Assembly: GCA_028284805.1 (NCBI GenBank)
Contig: JANQQZ010000006.1
Location: 1-64,000, forward strand
Direction of reading: 5' to 3'
Length of the DNA stretch: 64,000 bases
Source: Phycisphaerales bacterium
Lineage (GTDB): Bacteria > Planctomycetota > Phycisphaerae > Phycisphaerales > UBA1924
In this document: in pieces, positions 5,723 through 14,816 of the stretch
Layout: each line of letters opens with the position of its first letter
Position numbering within the stretch: the stretch's first letter is position 1
Notes under the pieces: model-generated
Seen by the model: only the letters and a program-made list of their open reading frames with translations
Database searches by the model: none
What the model was told of the DNA's origin: nothing
Translations under genes and position numbers: made by a program

Positions 5723-6456
5723 GAGCTCTACCCTGAGCAGACCCCACTCGCGCAAACGCACGGGCGGGCTGGGATACTTGTTCGAAGTTCGTGTCGAAGA
5801 CGCCGCTGACAATGGCGGCCCCCGAACGCATCAGCATGTAAATCGCTGTCGTGAGACCGCACGATCACGCACTGTGCTGGGGACGGGTTCAGTTATGGGA
5901 TCAGGATGGCGAAGACGGTGCAGAGAGCGCACACCGTCCCTTACGCACGCTTGATGCCACCTAAAAGAGCATCAAACCCATTCCGCTGAGGCACGCCTGG
6001 GAGGCGTCTCGGCGGTCGCACTTTGCAGGGCGGGTGATGGACTGCGAGGAACCCATACCAGGAGAAGTCAACGGGGCTCCCAAGTATTCCATCGTTTTGC
6101 GCATCCGCCGTAACCCCACGCGTTGACGAGGCAGCCCCTGAGTAGCGGGTGGCCTGTGGTGGAGACGTCGATGAGCGAAGCAGAACCAGCGGCACTCATC
6201 TTGAAACATGATGGGCCGGTCGGATCGAGTGCCTCGTCGATCAGCGGTTGAGATACTCGGCCCTCGTCTGCGGCCTGCTCGGGAAGCAGCACACGATGTG
6301 GGCGAACAAGACTGTTCGTGCGGTTGGCCGCGCTCCGCTGTAGTTCAACGGAGACGAGACAGCCGCGAACGACGCTCAGCCGACCGATGGCGGAGTGCTT
6401 CAATCCGTGGGGTTTCGCATCGCCTTGCACCCCCATGCACAGGCGAAGACGGGAAA

Positions 6457-6527
6457 GCGGGTGATCGGGATCGAACCGACGACATTCAGCTTGGGAAGCT
6501 GACGTTCTACCACTGAACTACACCCGC
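6457..6527 (-). tRNA. tRNA-Gly (anticodon CCC)
   Basis: Reverse complement GCGGGTGTAGTTCAGTGGTAGAACGTCAGCTTCCCAAGCTGAATGTCGTCGGTTCGATCCCGATCACCCGC folds as cloverleaf; loop TTCCCAA. Confidence 0.95.
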
Positions 6528-6838: not shown

Positions 6839-7798
6839 TTACTTCCAGGGGCGCTCGATCAGCAGCCGCGAGATGTCCTCCGAGGACAGCTGCGACTTGT
6901 AGAGACCGCAGCCCCCGTAGAGAGGGAGTTCGTTAATGGCGTCCACGAGTTTCTCTGTGTCGTCCTCGCAGTTCAGGACATGCGCCTTGTGCCCTTGGCC
7001 ATGTTCGTGGTTGTGTTCGTGGTCATGGTCATGGTCATGGTCATGGTCATGGTCGTGATTGTGAGATGACCACCCCCCAAGCCAGGCACCGCCCCAGTCG
7101 ATCGTGCCGTTCTCGCGTTCCCAGACGTTGACCTGCTCGTCGATCCAGGTATGGATGCCCCAGAACCACGGGTGTACGTGCGCGGAATAGGCATCGAACA
7201 GCGTGTCGTAGCCAGGTTCGTCCCAGACATCGTTGGCTTCGGGTGCCTGGTTCTTCGGCTCCCTGGTCTTCCCGTTGGTCGCGACATCACCGTACCGGAG
7301 ATGGAGACGCGCGTGGATGCCGTACTCGATGAGCGTGCCCAGCACACCAAGCGGCATGCCACGGATCGACTCGGGGCTGGTGAGCTCCGCCGCCTGCTCG
7401 AGTTCTTTCTCCCAGACGTCCGCGCGCTTCTCAGGGTACGTGGCAGCCGTGACGCTCCACGGGGTGATCGGGGGCGGGAAGTTCGGATCGTCGGGCCCGG
7501 GGAGCCCGGATCCCCACTCGAGGATCGGGGGGTCGGTGCTGCGCGACACGACCATCCTGGCATGCTCCACCATCACGCGGTGCATGAACAAGAAATCGCG
7601 CCCCGCGTCGTTGTCGAGCAGAGGCGTGCCGTCCCTGCTGAGCGACGGCCTGGGCGGGGCCCAGTCGTCTCCGAATCGCTGCCTGAAGGACTGCTGCTCG
7701 TCGTGAGACATCACGTTCCATCGCTCGCGTGACACATGCCACATGAGATGCGACAGGCGCATGTGCCGCTGAGACATCTCTTGTATCAGCTCGCTCAC
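6839..7798 (-). CDS. Divergent tyrosinase-like (type-3 copper) candidate with His-Asp repeat region
   Basis: FLFMHRVMVEHAR...PILEWG resembles CuA FLPWHR...LPYWDW; GTLIEYGIHARLHLRYGD and HVHPWFWGIHTWIDEQVNVW resemble the CuB motif; HNHDHDHDHDHDHDHDHEHNHEH tract. Confidence 0.5.
   Translation of the reverse strand: MSELIQEMSQRHMRLSHLMWHVSRERWNVMSHDEQQSFRQRFGDDWAPPRPSLSRDGTPLLDNDAGRDFLFMHRVMVEHARMVVSRSTDPPILEWGSGLPGPDDPNFPPPITPWSVTAATYPEKRADVWEKELEQAAELTSPESIRGMPLGVLGTLIEYGIHARLHLRYGDVATNGKTREPKNQAPEANDVWDEPGYDTLFDAYSAHVHPWFWGIHTWIDEQVNVWERENGTIDWGGAWLGGWSSHNHDHDHDHDHDHDHEHNHEHGQGHKAHVLNCEDDTEKLVDAINELPLYGGCGLYKSQLSSEDISRLLIERPWK
7000..7066 (-). repeat. In-frame hexanucleotide microsatellite encoding (His-Asp)n
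   Basis: Five exact tandem ATGGTC copies at 7025-7054 (+ strand) with degenerate flanking copies. Confidence 0.9.
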
Positions 7799-8238
7799 GA
7801 CGTTGCCTCGATCGCCATGAACAGGACGCCGATGCCCCCGAGGCTCAGCCCCCCGGGTCCCGTGACCAGATCAAGCTTGAGGGGGCTGCCGTTCTGCACG
7901 ACGACGGTGATGGTGTCGTGCCCGACGACGTTGTTGTCGTCGTCGTAGATCGGCTTGTACGCGGTTGTTTCATAGATCATCTGGAACGCACCGCCAATGT
8001 CTTGCGTCAGCTGTTCTCCGACGTACTCGATCGCTTCTTGCATGGCCTTCTCCGCGGACACGCCAGCCTGCGATTGGAACTGATTCCGGCAGCGGTCCAG
8101 GCAGGCCTGGATCTTGCCGTCGGGGTCCAGATTGAGGGCGATGACCTGCGGGTACTGGTACTGAGTGTGGTCGAACTCGTCACCAAAGGTGCTCAGAAGA
8201 AGACGAGCGGCCGTCAGGCGGTAGGTTGCTGCTTTCAC
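7795..8238 (-). CDS. Uncharacterised 147-aa protein, overlaps the start of the tyrosinase-like gene
   Basis: Complete ORF between same-strand genes; 4-bp overlap suggests translational coupling; no family recognised. Confidence 0.65.
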   Translation of the reverse strand: MKAATYRLTAARLLLSTFGDEFDHTQYQYPQVIALNLDPDGKIQACLDRCRNQFQSQAGVSAEKAMQEAIEYVGEQLTQDIGGAFQMIYETTAYKPIYDDDNNVVGHDTITVVVQNGSPLKLDLVTGPGGLSLGGIGVLFMAIEATS

Positions 8239-8263
8239 TTTCGGTTCCCTTTCTCTCGGGTGT

Positions 8264-10477
8264 TTAAGGTCCCGGATCGCCGATGCTCTTGACGCATCGG
8301 AATCCGCTCAGTGGTGATCCGTACTGCATGGGCGCCAGCAGGTAGCGGCGCAGCGTGTGCTCGGTCTCCGAATCGGCCCATGACCGCCCGGCGAGGACGA
8401 TGTCACGGCCCTGCAGGTCGACCGTCGCGGTGATCTCGCGGACATTCGAGTGCATGTGCAGCAGCCCCCGCGATGGGTCCCAGGGTGCCGGGCCCCGCGC
8501 ATCCCGTGTGCCGGCGGCGTATCGGGCGAACGCGAACTCGGCGTCGCTCATCGATTCGTCTCTTGTCACCTGGCTGGCTCGCGCGCGGCTCGACGCGTCC
8601 TCGCTGGGCGCCTGATCCGTATCCCACGGGTACAGCGCGCCGTCGGTCCCGCGGGCCGACGCCTGCCATTCCATGAGCGTGGGCAGACGCTTGCCACGCC
8701 ATCGGGCGTAGGCCTCCGCGTCCTCCTGGGTCACCCAGACGACCGGGAGATCGCTGATCTCCTTCATCGACGCGAACTTGCCGAAGTAGTACGGCTGGGG
8801 GTGCCCGGTCGCGTCGATGAACTGCTGGTACTCCGCGTTGGTCACCTCACGCCGATCGATGAGGAAGCCCTGGAGGCTGACGACTTCTGGGAGTCGCGGG
8901 TCGGTGTCGCCTTCGAACCCGAGCGCGTACTCGCCAGCGCTGACCGCGAGCATGTCCTCCGAGACCGCTTCGGGCGTCTGGAGCACCGCGATGCGTTCGT
9001 CCAAGGCGTGCTCGGGCCACGCCTCGGACGGGTCCAGGATCCTCAGCACCAGTCGTTCCGGCTGCTCCGGGAGAGGCAGCACAAGATTGAACTCACCCGT
9101 TGCGCCGTCGCCTTCCCTGAGGGCCGTGACCCTGTACTGCCCCGGTGCGAGCGTCAGGTTTCTTCCCCGGATGCGCCGACGTTCCGTCCAGATCGGCTCG
9201 CCAGCGGATCCGATGGGCGTAACGGACACGACGCAGTCCTCTTGCGAGGTCTCGAGGACGATGCTCGTCGACCCGGGTTCCTTTCTGTCCGCGAGCGGTA
9301 TGCCTATGGCGAATCCGAGAAGGACGATCAGCACGCCGATCGCAACACCTCTCCGTCGGTGAACGGTGCGCCCGATACGTCTGACCAGCGAAGGCGGCCT
9401 CGCGAGGATCGGGTCGCCGTTCTGCCAGCTGCGCAGGTCCGCTGCCAGCTGAGTAGCGGCCTGGTACCTGTCCGACGGACGCTTCTCGAGGGCCTTGTGA
9501 CAGATCGTTGCCAGATCGGTCGGCACGCTGCGATTCCGCAGCCTGACCGAACTCGCCTCGTAGGTCCGCAGCGCGTGCAGCACCTGGTGAGGTGTCGACC
9601 CATCGAAGGGGCGCCGTGTGGTGAGGGCTTCATAGAGCACGACTCCGAGCGAGAAGATGTCGGAGCGGTGGTCGATCTTGTGCTCGGTCAGGGCCGCCTG
9701 CTCAGGGCTCATGTAGTGCGGCGTGCCCGGCGTGACGCCGTCGAGCGTGAGGCCCTCGGACTCCATGATCTTGGCGATCCCGAAGTCGGCGATCTTCGCG
9801 TTCCCGTCTCGGTCGACCAGGATGTTGGATGGCTTCACGTCGCGGTGGATGATCGGCGGCTCGTTCATGTGGGCCGCGTGCAACGCCGTAGCGACCTGTT
9901 CGATGACCCTGGCGATGGCCAAGTAGCGTTCGCGGGTTCCCGAAGATCGCTTCGTCCGTGTGCGGTGTTGGGCGTCCTGCCCCTCGCTGGCCGCGGGCGT
10001 CGGGTACGGTGTTGGCGTTGTCGCGAGCCATTCCGCGAAGGTCTGGCCTTCGACGTACTCCATCGAGATGAAGTGCTTGCCCTCGTACTCGCCGAACTGG
10101 TAGATTTGAACGATGCCCGGCACGCTGAGCTGCGCCGCGAGCCTGGCCTCATCGTGGAACCGCTCGACGGTGTGCCTCGAGGCCGTGAAGGAGTCCAGGA
10201 GGACCTTGAGCGCGACCTGCCGCTTCAGGATCTCGTCGTAGGCGATGTAGACGACGCCCATGCCGCCTCGCCCGATCTCGCGGATGATCCTGAACTCGCG
10301 CAGCCTGGACGGCTGGTCGTCCTCGGGCGGCTCGACATGCGCGTCGAGAAGATCCTGGATGCGCTGGCGGAGGGCGGCGTCGTCGCCGCACGCACCATCC
10401 AGGAACGCTTCGCGGTCTTCCGGGCTGAGTGCGAGAGCGGCGAGGAAGATCTCCCGCTCCGTCTGCTTCTCATCCAT
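8264..10477 (-). CDS. Ser/Thr protein kinase with C-terminal FGE/SUMF1-like domain
   Basis: IGRGGMGVVYIAYDEILKRQVALKVL, IIHRDVKPSNILVDRDGNAKIADFGIAK; one TM; C-terminal VSAGEYALGF...REVTNAEYQQFID...KRLPTLMEWQASARG...GFRCVKS. Confidence 0.93.
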   Translation of the reverse strand: MDEKQTEREIFLAALALSPEDREAFLDGACGDDAALRQRIQDLLDAHVEPPEDDQPSRLREFRIIREIGRGGMGVVYIAYDEILKRQVALKVLLDSFTASRHTVERFHDEARLAAQLSVPGIVQIYQFGEYEGKHFISMEYVEGQTFAEWLATTPTPYPTPAASEGQDAQHRTRTKRSSGTRERYLAIARVIEQVATALHAAHMNEPPIIHRDVKPSNILVDRDGNAKIADFGIAKIMESEGLTLDGVTPGTPHYMSPEQAALTEHKIDHRSDIFSLGVVLYEALTTRRPFDGSTPHQVLHALRTYEASSVRLRNRSVPTDLATICHKALEKRPSDRYQAATQLAADLRSWQNGDPILARPPSLVRRIGRTVHRRRGVAIGVLIVLLGFAIGIPLADRKEPGSTSIVLETSQEDCVVSVTPIGSAGEPIWTERRRIRGRNLTLAPGQYRVTALREGDGATGEFNLVLPLPEQPERLVLRILDPSEAWPEHALDERIAVLQTPEAVSEDMLAVSAGEYALGFEGDTDPRLPEVVSLQGFLIDRREVTNAEYQQFIDATGHPQPYYFGKFASMKEISDLPVVWVTQEDAEAYARWRGKRLPTLMEWQASARGTDGALYPWDTDQAPSEDASSRARASQVTRDESMSDAEFAFARYAAGTRDARGPAPWDPSRGLLHMHSNVREITATVDLQGRDIVLAGRSWADSETEHTLRRYLLAPMQYGSPLSGFRCVKSIGDPGP

Positions 10478-10557
10478 CCTCACCCTCGGTCGCTCGCGCA
10501 GTGAACATGGAACTCCCACCGCATTCTGGCCGTTGGTGTGCGCGAATCCTGTCGTGT

Positions 10558-11139
10558 TTAGCCCGAGGACTCCAGGCGCGTTCGCAGCCACGCGCTGCCG
10601 TAGGTCACGTGCTGACGCACCGTAAACAGCGAAACACCCATGAGTTCAGATGTCTCGCGGAGGCTCCGGCCGGCCAGATAATGATGCTCGAGCGCGTCCG
10701 CGCTGCCCGGATCGACCGAACGCAACGCGCCGAGGGCGCCCGTAAGATCGACCAGGCTGACCGTGCGCATGCCCACGGGATCCGGGATTTCGAACATCGG
10801 TTCGTGCGTCCGATCGCCCCCCCGCTTGCGCGAGAGCGCCTTCCGGGCCTCGTCGGCGAGCGCGTCCCGCATCGCACGCCCCATCAGATAGAAGAAGTGG
10901 GCACGGTCCTCGGCCCGGAGCTGATCACGCCCCAGCAGGCGCTCGCATGCCATGTTGACGAGCTCGGTGCCGCGTATGGCACCGGGCCCGAGACCCCTCG
11001 CACGCAGCATTGAGCGTGCAACCTCGCGGAGCTCGGTGTCGACCCGAACAAAGAGCTGGTCTCTGGCGCCGAGATCACCCGCCTGCGACAGCCTGAGCAG
11101 ATCGGTCACGGTCCCCGGATCGCTTGGGCGGCTGGTCAT
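10558..11139 (-). CDS. ECF-type RNA polymerase sigma factor (planctomycete/acidobacterial type)
   Basis: VTDLLRLSQAGDLGARDQLFVRVDTELREVARSMLRA..TELVNMACERLL...FFYLMGRAMRDALADEARK; C-terminal sigma4-like HTH. Confidence 0.9.
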   Translation of the reverse strand: MTSRPSDPGTVTDLLRLSQAGDLGARDQLFVRVDTELREVARSMLRARGLGPGAIRGTELVNMACERLLGRDQLRAEDRAHFFYLMGRAMRDALADEARKALSRKRGGDRTHEPMFEIPDPVGMRTVSLVDLTGALGALRSVDPGSADALEHHYLAGRSLRETSELMGVSLFTVRQHVTYGSAWLRTRLESSG

Positions 11140-11322
11140 AGAGAGATTCTACCCGATCGTTTTTTCCTGTTTTTTGGCGCACGGATGCCTCTGGTTTGCG
11201 GTGGGTACCCGGAGGCGGGCATCGGCGCCGAGTCTCGGCTGCGACTGAAACAGGGATCTTCTCGGACCACAGCTTGGATCCGGAGTGAACCCAGACAACA
11301 CACGACGGACGCGACACTGGCC

Positions 11323-11817
11323 ATGCTGCCGAAAGAGTTCATTCGCACGGTGTCATTCCTCGTCACGATGGGCGGGCTGATCGCGTTCGCCATCCTCCAC
11401 GGGCTCGCGATCAGCGAGGCATTTCGGCCTCGCCCGTTCCCGGTCTGGCTGACATCGGACGCGATGCTGTGGAGCGCAACGACCCTGACGGGGCTTGTCG
11501 GCGGCGTGGTCGCGGTCGCGTTCGGAGTGAAACCGGACACCGATCTGCAAGGCGGCGCAGAGACAAAGGGTCAGACCGCGCAGATGACCCGAGCGCTGCG
11601 TCGGATGACCGGGCTCGACAGCACCGGTGAACAGACGAGCAACCGACTCAAGGACACCGCCGCGATGGTGTACGTCTGTATGTACCTGATCGTCGGTGGT
11701 TTCTCGTGGGTGGCATACATCTTTGCCCCTGGTGGTGTGACCGAACAGACCAAGAGCCTCGCTCTCGTCACGGTCGGGATCATGGTCGCGGTCATCAACA
11801 AGTTTGTGAGCAAGTAA
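11323..11817 (+). CDS. Small membrane protein, about four predicted TM helices
   Basis: Hydrophobic stretches TVSFLVTMGGLIAFAILHGLAI, TLTGLVGGVVAVAFG, AAMVYVCMYLIVGGFSWVAYIF, LALVTVGIMVAVI; start at 11323 chosen. Confidence 0.65.
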   Translation: MLPKEFIRTVSFLVTMGGLIAFAILHGLAISEAFRPRPFPVWLTSDAMLWSATTLTGLVGGVVAVAFGVKPDTDLQGGAETKGQTAQMTRALRRMTGLDSTGEQTSNRLKDTAAMVYVCMYLIVGGFSWVAYIFAPGGVTEQTKSLALVTVGIMVAVINKFVSK

Positions 11818-11835
11818 GAGGAAGGAAACAGAGTC

Positions 11836-13083
11836 ATGGGCTACAGGACCGAACCCGGAAAGTACATCATTCTTCGCTCCGATCAGCCGGACTACGAAGG
11901 CGTCCTGCACCGCCGCGCGGCGGTAGGTCCGTTCGCACGGTCGTCCGAGCTGCCTCGGGAGAGTCTGACCGTCCATGTCGAGGACCTCTCGCGCACCGGC
12001 ATCACCGACTTGGAGCGCAACCCTTCGGTCAAGGCGTACGCACGCCCGATGCCCGTGCAGCTGTTCGAGCCCGAGCGGGACACCGTGGGCGTGTCGCCTT
12101 CATCCGAACCCGAGAACACGTGGGGTGTCGAGGCGGTTGAGGCGCACACGAGCCCGTTCGATGGCAGCGGTGTCACTGTCGCGGTGCTCGACACAGGGAT
12201 CGACACGGGTCACGTCGCGTTCCAGAACATGACGAACATCGTTCAGCGGGACTTCACCTCGGAGGGCGACGGCGACACCAACGGGCACGGCACCCATGTC
12301 GCGGGCACCGTGTTCGGGCAGGATGTCGCCGGCACCCGGATCGGCGTCGCGCGGGGCGTCGAGCGCGCCCTGATCGGGAAGGTGCTCGGCGCGAACGGCG
12401 GGGGCTCGACCGAACAGATCTACGAGGCCATGCTCTGGGCCGACAGGGAGGGCGCCGACATCATCTCGATGTCTCTGGGCATCAGCTACCCGCAGTACGC
12501 CGCGTACCTGATCGAGAGGCAGGGGTTCCCGAAGGACCTTGCCGCGTCGTACGCGCTCGAGGCATACCGAGACACGGTCCGGCTCTTCGACGCGATCGCC
12601 GAGAGCCTCGAGGCCCGCGCACTGTTCGACAACTCCTCCAGCGCCATCGTCGCGGCGGCCGGCAACGAGAGCCGGCGGAACGATCACCCCGAGTGGGTGC
12701 TCGGGACGGCCCCGCCGGCCGCCAGCGACGGGTGCATCTCGGTCGGAGCCCTCGGGCGCACGAGTTCGCGGACCGCTCCGTACTCGATCGCGTCTTTCTC
12801 GAACACGGGTGTCAGCGTCACGGCACCGGGTGTGGGGGTTCTCTCGGCCCGCGCGGGCTCGGATCTGGATCTGATCGAATTCAGCGGGACCAGCATGGCG
12901 ACACCCCATGTCGCGGGGATCGCAGCGCTGTGGGCCCAGAAGATCAAGATGCAGACCGGCTCGGTCGAGCACCGACGGGTCAAGGGACGCCTGCTGGGCA
13001 GTGCGCGCCCGCTGACCTATCTCAATGCGTCGGATGTCGGTCTGGGCATCGTGCGGGCGCCGCAGCCTGATCCGATCTCGTAA
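11836..13083 (+). CDS. Subtilisin-like serine peptidase (S8), no evident signal peptide
   Basis: VAVLDTGID, NGHGTHVAGTVFG, FSGTSMATPHVAGIAAL catalytic Asp/His/Ser motifs; hydrophilic N-terminus MGYRTEPGKYIILRSDQPDY. Confidence 0.93.
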   Translation: MGYRTEPGKYIILRSDQPDYEGVLHRRAAVGPFARSSELPRESLTVHVEDLSRTGITDLERNPSVKAYARPMPVQLFEPERDTVGVSPSSEPENTWGVEAVEAHTSPFDGSGVTVAVLDTGIDTGHVAFQNMTNIVQRDFTSEGDGDTNGHGTHVAGTVFGQDVAGTRIGVARGVERALIGKVLGANGGGSTEQIYEAMLWADREGADIISMSLGISYPQYAAYLIERQGFPKDLAASYALEAYRDTVRLFDAIAESLEARALFDNSSSAIVAAAGNESRRNDHPEWVLGTAPPAASDGCISVGALGRTSSRTAPYSIASFSNTGVSVTAPGVGVLSARAGSDLDLIEFSGTSMATPHVAGIAALWAQKIKMQTGSVEHRRVKGRLLGSARPLTYLNASDVGLGIVRAPQPDPIS

Positions 13084-13210
13084 GCGAGCGCATGCGCAGG
13101 ATGACGCGGGCGGAAGGGCATCCTCCGACCGATGCCTGGGCGAACGCCAAAAACGAGTACCGGCTGGGTCTTTCTCCGCGGAACCAGTTCGGGCCGGGGT
13201 AACGAAAGGG

Positions 13211-13243
13211 ACGCTCACGCCTTCACAAAGAGGGCGTGAGCGT
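13211..13243. terminator. Strong stem-loop downstream of subtilase gene
   Basis: ACGCTCACGCC / GGCGTGAGCGT perfect 11-bp inverted repeat with 11-nt loop; no clear T tract. Confidence 0.55.
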
Positions 13244-13277
13244 ACCCTGACTTCTCGAAGTCCCCGGAGCTGCCCAG

Positions 13278-14816
13278 ATGCCGAGGCACGCCAGTTCGAT
13301 CCGTGTCAGTCGTACGGGGCGCGCTTTCTCCGCGATCGTGATTGCGTGTTCTCTGTGTAGTTTCGCGATGTCAGGCTGCCTTCGCGATGCGGCTCATCCC
13401 TGGCCTGATACCCCAGCGTTGCCGCCCGAGAGCACGGCCGATCTCAGTGTGGCTGTGGACTGGGCGGCGGTCCGGGGCGTGATCTACGACCGGTGCGTGA
13501 CCTGCCATGCCGAGCCCGGTCCGGCAGCGGATCTCAACCTGACGCTGGCGACCTCGGCGCAGCGATCGGCGCTCGAGGGTCGGCTGATCGCGCGGATCAA
13601 CGATGCGGTGTTCCCGATGCCACCGAGCGGGCTGCTGCCCGAGGAGACGCGTGAGTTGCTGGGACGATGGGCCGCTCAGGGGGCGCCGATCGAGTCGTCG
13701 GCCGAGCCGAGGACGTGGCTGGACCTGTCGGCGGACCTCGAAAGAGCAGACCTGAGCACGGAGGGCGAACGGATGGGTTCCGCGGCATCATCGGTCGTCC
13801 CGCTCGCGGTCGGCGATCGCGGCATCGGATTCCTCGAACGCATGAACGGCCACTGGGTCGGCTCGATGGAACTCATGGGGCAGGCGATGCCGTGGTTCGC
13901 GTTCGACTACCGCCCGATCGGGCCCTCGCACGTGCACGGGATCTTCGAGGGCGGGACGATGGGCAACCTGATGACCTCGTTCTTCCTCGCACGCTACCGC
14001 GGCGTGGACACGCTGGTCGCCCGCAACGGCGGCGTTCTCAACGGCATCTACCGCACGAGCTACTTTGTCCTGGACCGCATCGAAGAGCGCAGCGGATCAA
14101 CCGAGTACCGCTTCGTCGATGCGATCGGCGGCGCCGAGATCATGTGGATGACGCTCGTGTTCACGGAGGACCGCCTCGAGTGGGAGGCATACACGAGCCG
14201 GATGGGCGAGCAGCCCGAGCCCTCGAGGCACATGCTCTTCTCGGCGAAGCGGAAATCCGTCGATCTTGCCGAGCGCGCAGCTGTCGAGGTCGGATTCCCA
14301 TCTGATGAACCTCTGCTCGATCTGCCCGACGGGTTCGCAGCCCCTGACTGGGGTAGCTATGGTCGGGCGACCTCGGCCAGCTACATGTGGGAGGACCGTG
14401 GACTCGACGCCGAACGGATGGGCGTGCTCGCGGGCGACCCCGTGCGTATCGAGCACCTGACACACCTGTCGAGGCTCACGGTCTCGGTGGAGCGCACGCC
14501 CGCAATCGCCGACGCGACGTTGCTGGTCTATCTCTCGCGGGAACCGTTCACAGACGAGAGCGGCTCGCTGCGTGCGAGTGGCGGCTCCATCCGGGAGAAC
14601 GTCTTCGACACCGTGCTGCTCTTCCCAGAGATTCGGCGGACACAGAACGACTTGACGTTCACGTACCTCCACCCGGGGGAGTACGAGCTCACGATCGTCG
14701 CCGATCTCGATCGAGATGGCATCCCAGGCTCAGGCGACCCCGTCGGGCCGAGCCGGCGGCTCGTGATCGAGCCGGGAACCCACCCGCGGGTGATCGTCGA
14801 TGATGTTCCTCCCTGA
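13278..14816 (+). CDS. Exported planctomycete cytochrome-c-like heme protein (CxxCH) with uncharacterised C-terminal part
   Basis: N-terminal hydrophobic segment; VIYDRCVTCHAEPGPAADLNL single CxxCH motif. Confidence 0.7.
   Translation: MPRHASSIRVSRTGRAFSAIVIACSLCSFAMSGCLRDAAHPWPDTPALPPESTADLSVAVDWAAVRGVIYDRCVTCHAEPGPAADLNLTLATSAQRSALEGRLIARINDAVFPMPPSGLLPEETRELLGRWAAQGAPIESSAEPRTWLDLSADLERADLSTEGERMGSAASSVVPLAVGDRGIGFLERMNGHWVGSMELMGQAMPWFAFDYRPIGPSHVHGIFEGGTMGNLMTSFFLARYRGVDTLVARNGGVLNGIYRTSYFVLDRIEERSGSTEYRFVDAIGGAEIMWMTLVFTEDRLEWEAYTSRMGEQPEPSRHMLFSAKRKSVDLAERAAVEVGFPSDEPLLDLPDGFAAPDWGSYGRATSASYMWEDRGLDAERMGVLAGDPVRIEHLTHLSRLTVSVERTPAIADATLLVYLSREPFTDESGSLRASGGSIRENVFDTVLLFPEIRRTQNDLTFTYLHPGEYELTIVADLDRDGIPGSGDPVGPSRRLVIEPGTHPRVIVDDVPP

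Follow-up and report, generated by a model that had tools for sequence, protein, structure and literature searches.

In ECF sigma factors that are activated by kinases, the acidic DAED motif is missing, and phosphorylation of a Thr or Ser restores the charge (PMC8999054, PMC13147305). The described cases include EcfP–PknT of Vibrio, with the phosphosite motif STTA, and EcfK–PknS of Xanthomonas, with the phosphosite Thr51 (PMC8999054, PMC13147305). In these ECF43 pairs, as in the planctomycete groups ECF59, 61, 62, and 217, the sigma factor is found beside a transmembrane (TM) Ser/Thr kinase. Such pairs have been reported for several groups, and in reviews they mostly appear without a known target. 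Two described tyrosinases are also relevant here: PvdP, from pyoverdine maturation in Pseudomonas, and MelC2 of Streptomyces, whose gene lies directly downstream of that of MelC1, a protein with a described caddie role (PMC9454253). Finally, NucA–trypsin/peptidase conflict systems have been catalogued (Kaur et al. 2020, PMC7159879) in a paper in which the word "tyrosinase" does not occur.

The locus described here occupies positions 6839–13083 of the window, the whole stretch of 64,000 nucleotides of Phycisphaerales DNA that was analyzed. Four genes on the minus strand encode, in this order, an ECF sigma factor (10558–11139), a Ser/Thr receptor kinase with an FGE-like domain (open from 10591 to 8264), a 147-aa protein (P0002, 7795–8238), and a PvdP-type tyrosinase with a type-3 copper site (P0001, 6839–7798). 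A divergent intergenic region of 183 bp (11140–11322) separates the sigma gene, head-to-head, from two genes on the plus strand, for a 164-aa four-TM protein (P0005, 11323–11817) and, 18 bp further on, an S8 subtilase (P0006, 11836–13083). An earlier note on this DNA had listed the same six genes, and all the ORFs, the gap, and the spacing are present as it described them, as are the four hydrophobic segments of the small membrane protein and the lack of an export signal in the peptidase. Every part of the locus is of a known kind and its novelty lies in their combination; no description of an operon that joins a kinase/ECF pair to a PvdP-type tyrosinase was found in the open-licence papers searched.

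The gene order ECF sigma, kinase–FGE, protein of about 150 aa, tyrosinase is common to three genomes. The second carrier, the Phycisphaerales MAG SJ401 (locus L023), was found by scanning 84,980 species with the tyrosinase alignment, and its small protein has 156 aa. The third, genome G541 (locus L103), was found by searching the class with the small protein as query; it belongs to the same class as the window genome (Phycisphaerae) and to a different family. Most neighboring genes in the three operons overlap by a few base pairs or sit no more than about 25 bp apart, so that a single transcript for the four genes is likely. The tyrosinase and small-protein genes overlap by 4 bp in the window, and an overlap is also found in L103. 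Among the three operons, the sigma, kinase, and tyrosinase sequences are 33–43% identical (sigmas 38–39%, kinases 42–43%, tyrosinases about 34–39%), while the small proteins share about 22–24% (BLASTP 3e-9 for the window copy against that of L023). In the phylogenetic tree, the three tyrosinases form one clade with support of 99/97, apart from the pyoverdine enzymes; their long branches leave the inner order of the clade unsure. The repetition of the order in three genomes takes the four-gene arrangement beyond chance, which does not hold for all six genes. The sigma factor, the kinase–FGE, the 147-aa protein, and the tyrosinase are thus a real co-inherited module.

The operon is rare, occurring in about one in several hundred planctomycete genomes. 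With the small protein as query, the window genome is the sole positive among 151 genomes of its order; two of 298 genomes are positive in the class, and a three-row model searched against the phylum retrieved the window and two weak matches only (E 0.001 and 0.01). The tyrosinase alignment is matched in two of 397 genomes of the class, in G541 alone among the 114 genomes of its order, and in two of 392 genomes of the phylum, where the second is an Anammoxibacter-type locus of a different kind. Order-level matches to P0001 proved to be spurious low-complexity hits confined to its HDHD His tract and were discarded.

The sigma factor is of the Sigma70_ECF/Sig-70_X6 type, an assignment based on PF07638 (E 1.8e-27) and TIGR02999 (E 7.8e-34); in this it differs from the sigmas of EcfP–PknT and EcfK–PknS. 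In its σ2.2 region, the DAED motif is replaced by RGTE (residues 56–59), which places Thr58 at the position of the EcfP and EcfK phosphosites. Across the three operons the motif of the sigma is RGTE, QATA, or GGTE; all three have lost DAED, and Thr58 is invariant. Thr is common at that position within this sigma family, and Thr58 by itself is therefore no proof of phosphorylation. Each of the three sigmas adjoins a TM Ser/Thr kinase with intact catalytic residues (K129, D251 of HRD, and D269 of DFG, invariant in the three genomes).

The likely start of the window kinase is the ATG at 10477 (residue 39 of the long ORF), giving a gene of 8264–10477. The protein consists of a kinase domain (PF00069, 9.5e-44), one TM segment (about residues 416–434 of the long ORF), and a C-terminal FGE-like domain (PF03781, 1e-29), an ectodomain that distinguishes it from PknT and PknS. 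Its only Cys residues are at positions 29, 68, 364, 453, and 766. None falls within the stretch 736–760, which we take to be the site of the catalytic Cys pair of formylglycine-generating enzymes; the FGE-like domain lacks this pair and is therefore probably a non-catalytic sensor. FGE domains belong, as a subtype, to the C-type-lectin fold, and a sensor role has been proposed for them in other systems (PMC10907252). The possibility that a diversity-generating retroelement acts on the FGE domain was considered and dropped, as the window has no reverse transcriptase; the single one of the genome is encoded on another contig (G000:C127:37679-38125, PF00078, 2.1e-12).

Residues 11–230 of P0001 match PvdP (PDB 6eys, E 6e-17), and the protein also matches the NCBIfam PvdP model (2.4e-25); no Pfam tyrosinase match is found. 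A structure model built from 19 relatives (pLDDT 77.9) was compared with the PDB by Foldseek, where PvdP is the sole strong match (E 1e-8, TMq 0.65) and the next entry has an E value of about 1. The predicted copper ligands H17, H21, and H73 (CuA) and H162, H166, and H216 (CuB) are conserved in the three operons, and the six His are kept at 90% or more in 22 sequences. Sequence and model thus identify P0001 as a PvdP-type tyrosinase, a predicted type-3 copper enzyme, which sharpens the description of a tyrosinase-like His-rich protein given in the earlier note.

P0001 shares with PvdP the tyrosinase core, the six copper-ligand His, the fold, and the C-terminal helical tail. The N-terminal β domain of the pyoverdine enzyme is absent, the tyrosinase domain beginning at residue 11, and for this reason we call P0001 PvdP-like and not PvdP. 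Further differences are a distinct clade, the lack of a pyoverdine context, and the lack of a signal peptide, this last being the one ground on which we would place the enzyme in the cytoplasm. Between the core and the C-terminal helices runs a His-rich tail (H246–H273) with 12 His in 25 residues, where PvdP of Pseudomonas has a Cys-containing motif. A His-rich stretch between the core and the terminal helix is common in PvdP-like proteins outside Pseudomonas and is strongest in P0001, where it probably loads copper.

These features suggest how the operon might work. The kinase would sense an outside ligand through the non-catalytic, C-type-lectin-fold FGE-like domain beyond its TM segment and phosphorylate the co-encoded sigma factor at Thr58, providing the negative charge required for RNA polymerase binding. 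The phosphorylated sigma would then turn on its own operon, yielding the presumably cytoplasmic tyrosinase and its translationally coupled partner of about 147 aa. The enzyme, its copper probably loaded with the help of the His-rich tail, would most likely form an o-quinone by oxidation of a tyrosyl or phenolic group, and P0002 may act as a chaperone or lid for the tyrosinase or as its protein substrate. We consider this sequence of events, from ligand sensing through Thr58 to induction of the tyrosinase and its partner, to be probable, though well short of assured; that the ECF–kinase pair controls the copper enzyme is in itself very likely. The predicted output is a tyrosinase operon, and not polymyxin resistance or T6SS as in the EcfP–PknT and EcfK–PknS systems. 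A planctomycete ECF–kinase pair is thereby given a concrete predicted output, and the operon makes testable both the Thr phosphorylation of an ECF sigma in Planctomycetes and the effect of the small partner on the enzyme.

P0002 had been taken for an orphan. Homologs are encoded at the same position of the other two operons (L023:9512-9979 and L103:7269-7691), which makes it a member of an operon-specific family. Its gene is directly upstream of the tyrosinase gene in all three operons. The family has a conserved block, Y94..I97.D99....V104.GHD (GHD at 106–108), in which Tyr94 is invariant. The AlphaFold2 model of P0002 (pLDDT 76) is a mostly folded α/β protein whose fold has no match in the PDB at E ≤ 0.001, and the sequence has no Pfam match.

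As a tentative possibility, P0002 may serve the tyrosinase as a copper chaperone and as a lid of its active site, in the way that the caddie MelC1 serves the Streptomyces tyrosinase. The protein is small and strand-rich, the position of its gene is that of melC1, and Tyr94 and the GHD motif are conserved. However, it is related to MelC1 neither in sequence nor in fold, the searches of Pfam and the PDB having given no support for homology to caddies, and MelC2 is a tyrosinase of another subclass. In addition, P0002 has few His residues and no Tat signal, and the tyrosinase already carries a His-rich tail of its own.

It is more doubtful that P0002 is itself the substrate, either a RiPP-like precursor or a structural protein in which Tyr94 would be oxidized or cross-linked. 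This would fit the 4-bp gene overlap, the co-conservation with the tyrosinase, and the invariance of Tyr94 within the conserved block. PvdP acts on a peptide-borne Tyr (PMC6206403), and a PvdP-like tyrosinase of locus L026 adjoins an 18-copy Tyr-rich repeat protein. Against it, P0002 is predicted to be mostly folded and has no leader/core layout, and its family consists of three sequences only.

The plus-strand pair stands apart from the operon. The hydrophobic segments of P0005 start at residues 12, 51, 116, and 145; it has no Pfam, NCBIfam, or PDB family, and no relatives were found in 151 genomes, plasmids, or the retrieved comparison loci. P0006 is an S8 subtilase (PF00082, 1.7e-36) with an intact D119/H151/S353 triad and no hydrophobic signal sequence. 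Its closest relatives are on plasmids (39–45% identity), where they adjoin genes for caspase and TIR (L106), CHAT, TIR, and caspase (L108), a NACHT protein with several TM segments (L107), CHAT and trypsin (L110), or trypsin (L109); L111 has no neighbor of the caspase, CHAT, TIR, NACHT, or trypsin type. These neighborhoods, which resemble the NucA–trypsin/peptidase conflict systems, suggest that the S8 protein is a conflict-type peptidase. At the window locus itself, no NTPase, EAD, or nuclease is seen, and a Pfam scan of the seven proteins of 6839–14816 detected no sensor NTPase, TIR, CHAT, or caspase.

The earlier note had proposed that all six genes form one module, in which the kinase and sigma drive a copper and a proteolytic effector. 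In its elaborated form, the kinase/sigma circuit would control tyrosinase and protease, the protease would cut the partner or the His-rich tail (activating a zymogen), and the four-TM protein would serve as anchor or pore. We regard this as unlikely. Bacterial and other tyrosinases are known as zymogens (PMC9454253), two of the three operons have a divergent protease, and PvdP-like tyrosinases are encoded near S8 or trypsin/NucA genes in L014, L015, L017, L036, L039, L052, and L072. The two divergent proteases, however, belong to different families, S8 in the window and a secreted trypsin-like protease in L103, and the L023 operon has no adjoining protease. Profiles seeded from the loci had suggested an enrichment of S8 and trypsin genes near PvdP-like tyrosinases, which independently built profiles do not show: S8 hits are about as common near these tyrosinases (3 in 497 kb) as far from them (2 in 421 kb), and so no S8 enrichment is shown.

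Control shared across the 183-bp gap, as the earlier note had supposed, also lacks a visible basis: neither a sigma70-like promoter or terminator nor a motif in common with the sister operons was found within it, and a comparison of the regions upstream of the three sigma genes gave no promoter motif that they have in common. Both sister operons occur without the four-TM/S8 pair, and S8 relatives occur without the operon, in the caspase, CHAT, and TIR loci. The operon and the peptidase are thus independent of each other in the neighborhood comparison, the outcome that the earlier note had named as refuting its proposal, and a conserved six-gene unit is rejected; what stands of the original proposal is the co-inheritance of the four minus-strand genes and the control of the copper enzyme by the ECF–kinase pair. 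The divergent pair is a separate locus and no part of the module. A looser tie to proteolysis may exist, since a divergent protease recurs in L103.

A related reading likens the locus to the prophenoloxidase response of arthropods, as its bacterial equivalent, in which the receptor kinase and sigma would induce a type-3 copper oxidase held inactive by its partner or tail, and the divergent protease (S8 here, trypsin-like in G541) would activate it by cleavage against invaders or predators. This we rate as quite improbable. PvdO, a further pyoverdine protein, is FGE-like. Least probable of all, and by our estimate very improbable, is a siderophore-type pathway in which P0001 and the FGE-like domain would mirror PvdP and PvdO: PvdP is the closest relative of P0001 in sequence and fold and needs PvdO alongside it (PMC6206403), but P0001 is missing the N-terminal PvdP domain, the pyoverdine clade lies elsewhere in the tyrosinase tree, the FGE domain is part of a kinase and lies on the opposite side of the membrane from a tyrosinase that has no signal peptide, and homology to PvdO was dropped as no chain of that name is among the FGE-domain matches at E ≤ 0.01.

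The G+C content in 6839–8238 and 11323–11817 is lower, at 0.63, 0.61, and 0.62, than the window mean of 0.671 (s.d. 0.024 per kb). A tRNA-Gly(ccc) gene is located at 6456–6527 of the window; no second copy of its end was found in a search for an island boundary, and an attempt to place such a boundary by flanking synteny was dropped, the flanking genes showing no conservation in relatives.

The four-gene operon extends the known range of the PvdP subclass. Known from siderophore maturation, this subclass has members across both bacteria and archaea that bear a His-rich tail and occur in contexts unrelated to pyoverdine. Some members are found next to conflict-type genes, directly adjoining a NucA–trypsin-type protein in L015, L016, L036, and L039 and within about 5 kb of one in L072. 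In some, a LodA/GoxA-type oxidase is encoded beside or near the tyrosinase (L036, L040, and L043), together with a LodB-like flavoprotein in L018:5512-10169 and L104:3367-9255; these loci include a Mesorhizobium plasmid and an Anammoxibacter MAG. In Streptomyces morookaense, a PvdP-like tyrosinase adjoins, on the opposite strand, a gene for a small His-rich cupredoxin-like protein (L019:10910-11392). In Nitrosovibrio tenuis (L026:8131-10885), two tandem PvdP-like tyrosinases flank the gene of a repeat protein with 18.5 copies of a 12-aa unit (ALRGYPGYTSLE) containing two Tyr each; this candidate for a protein substrate recalls the repeats of mussel-foot proteins.
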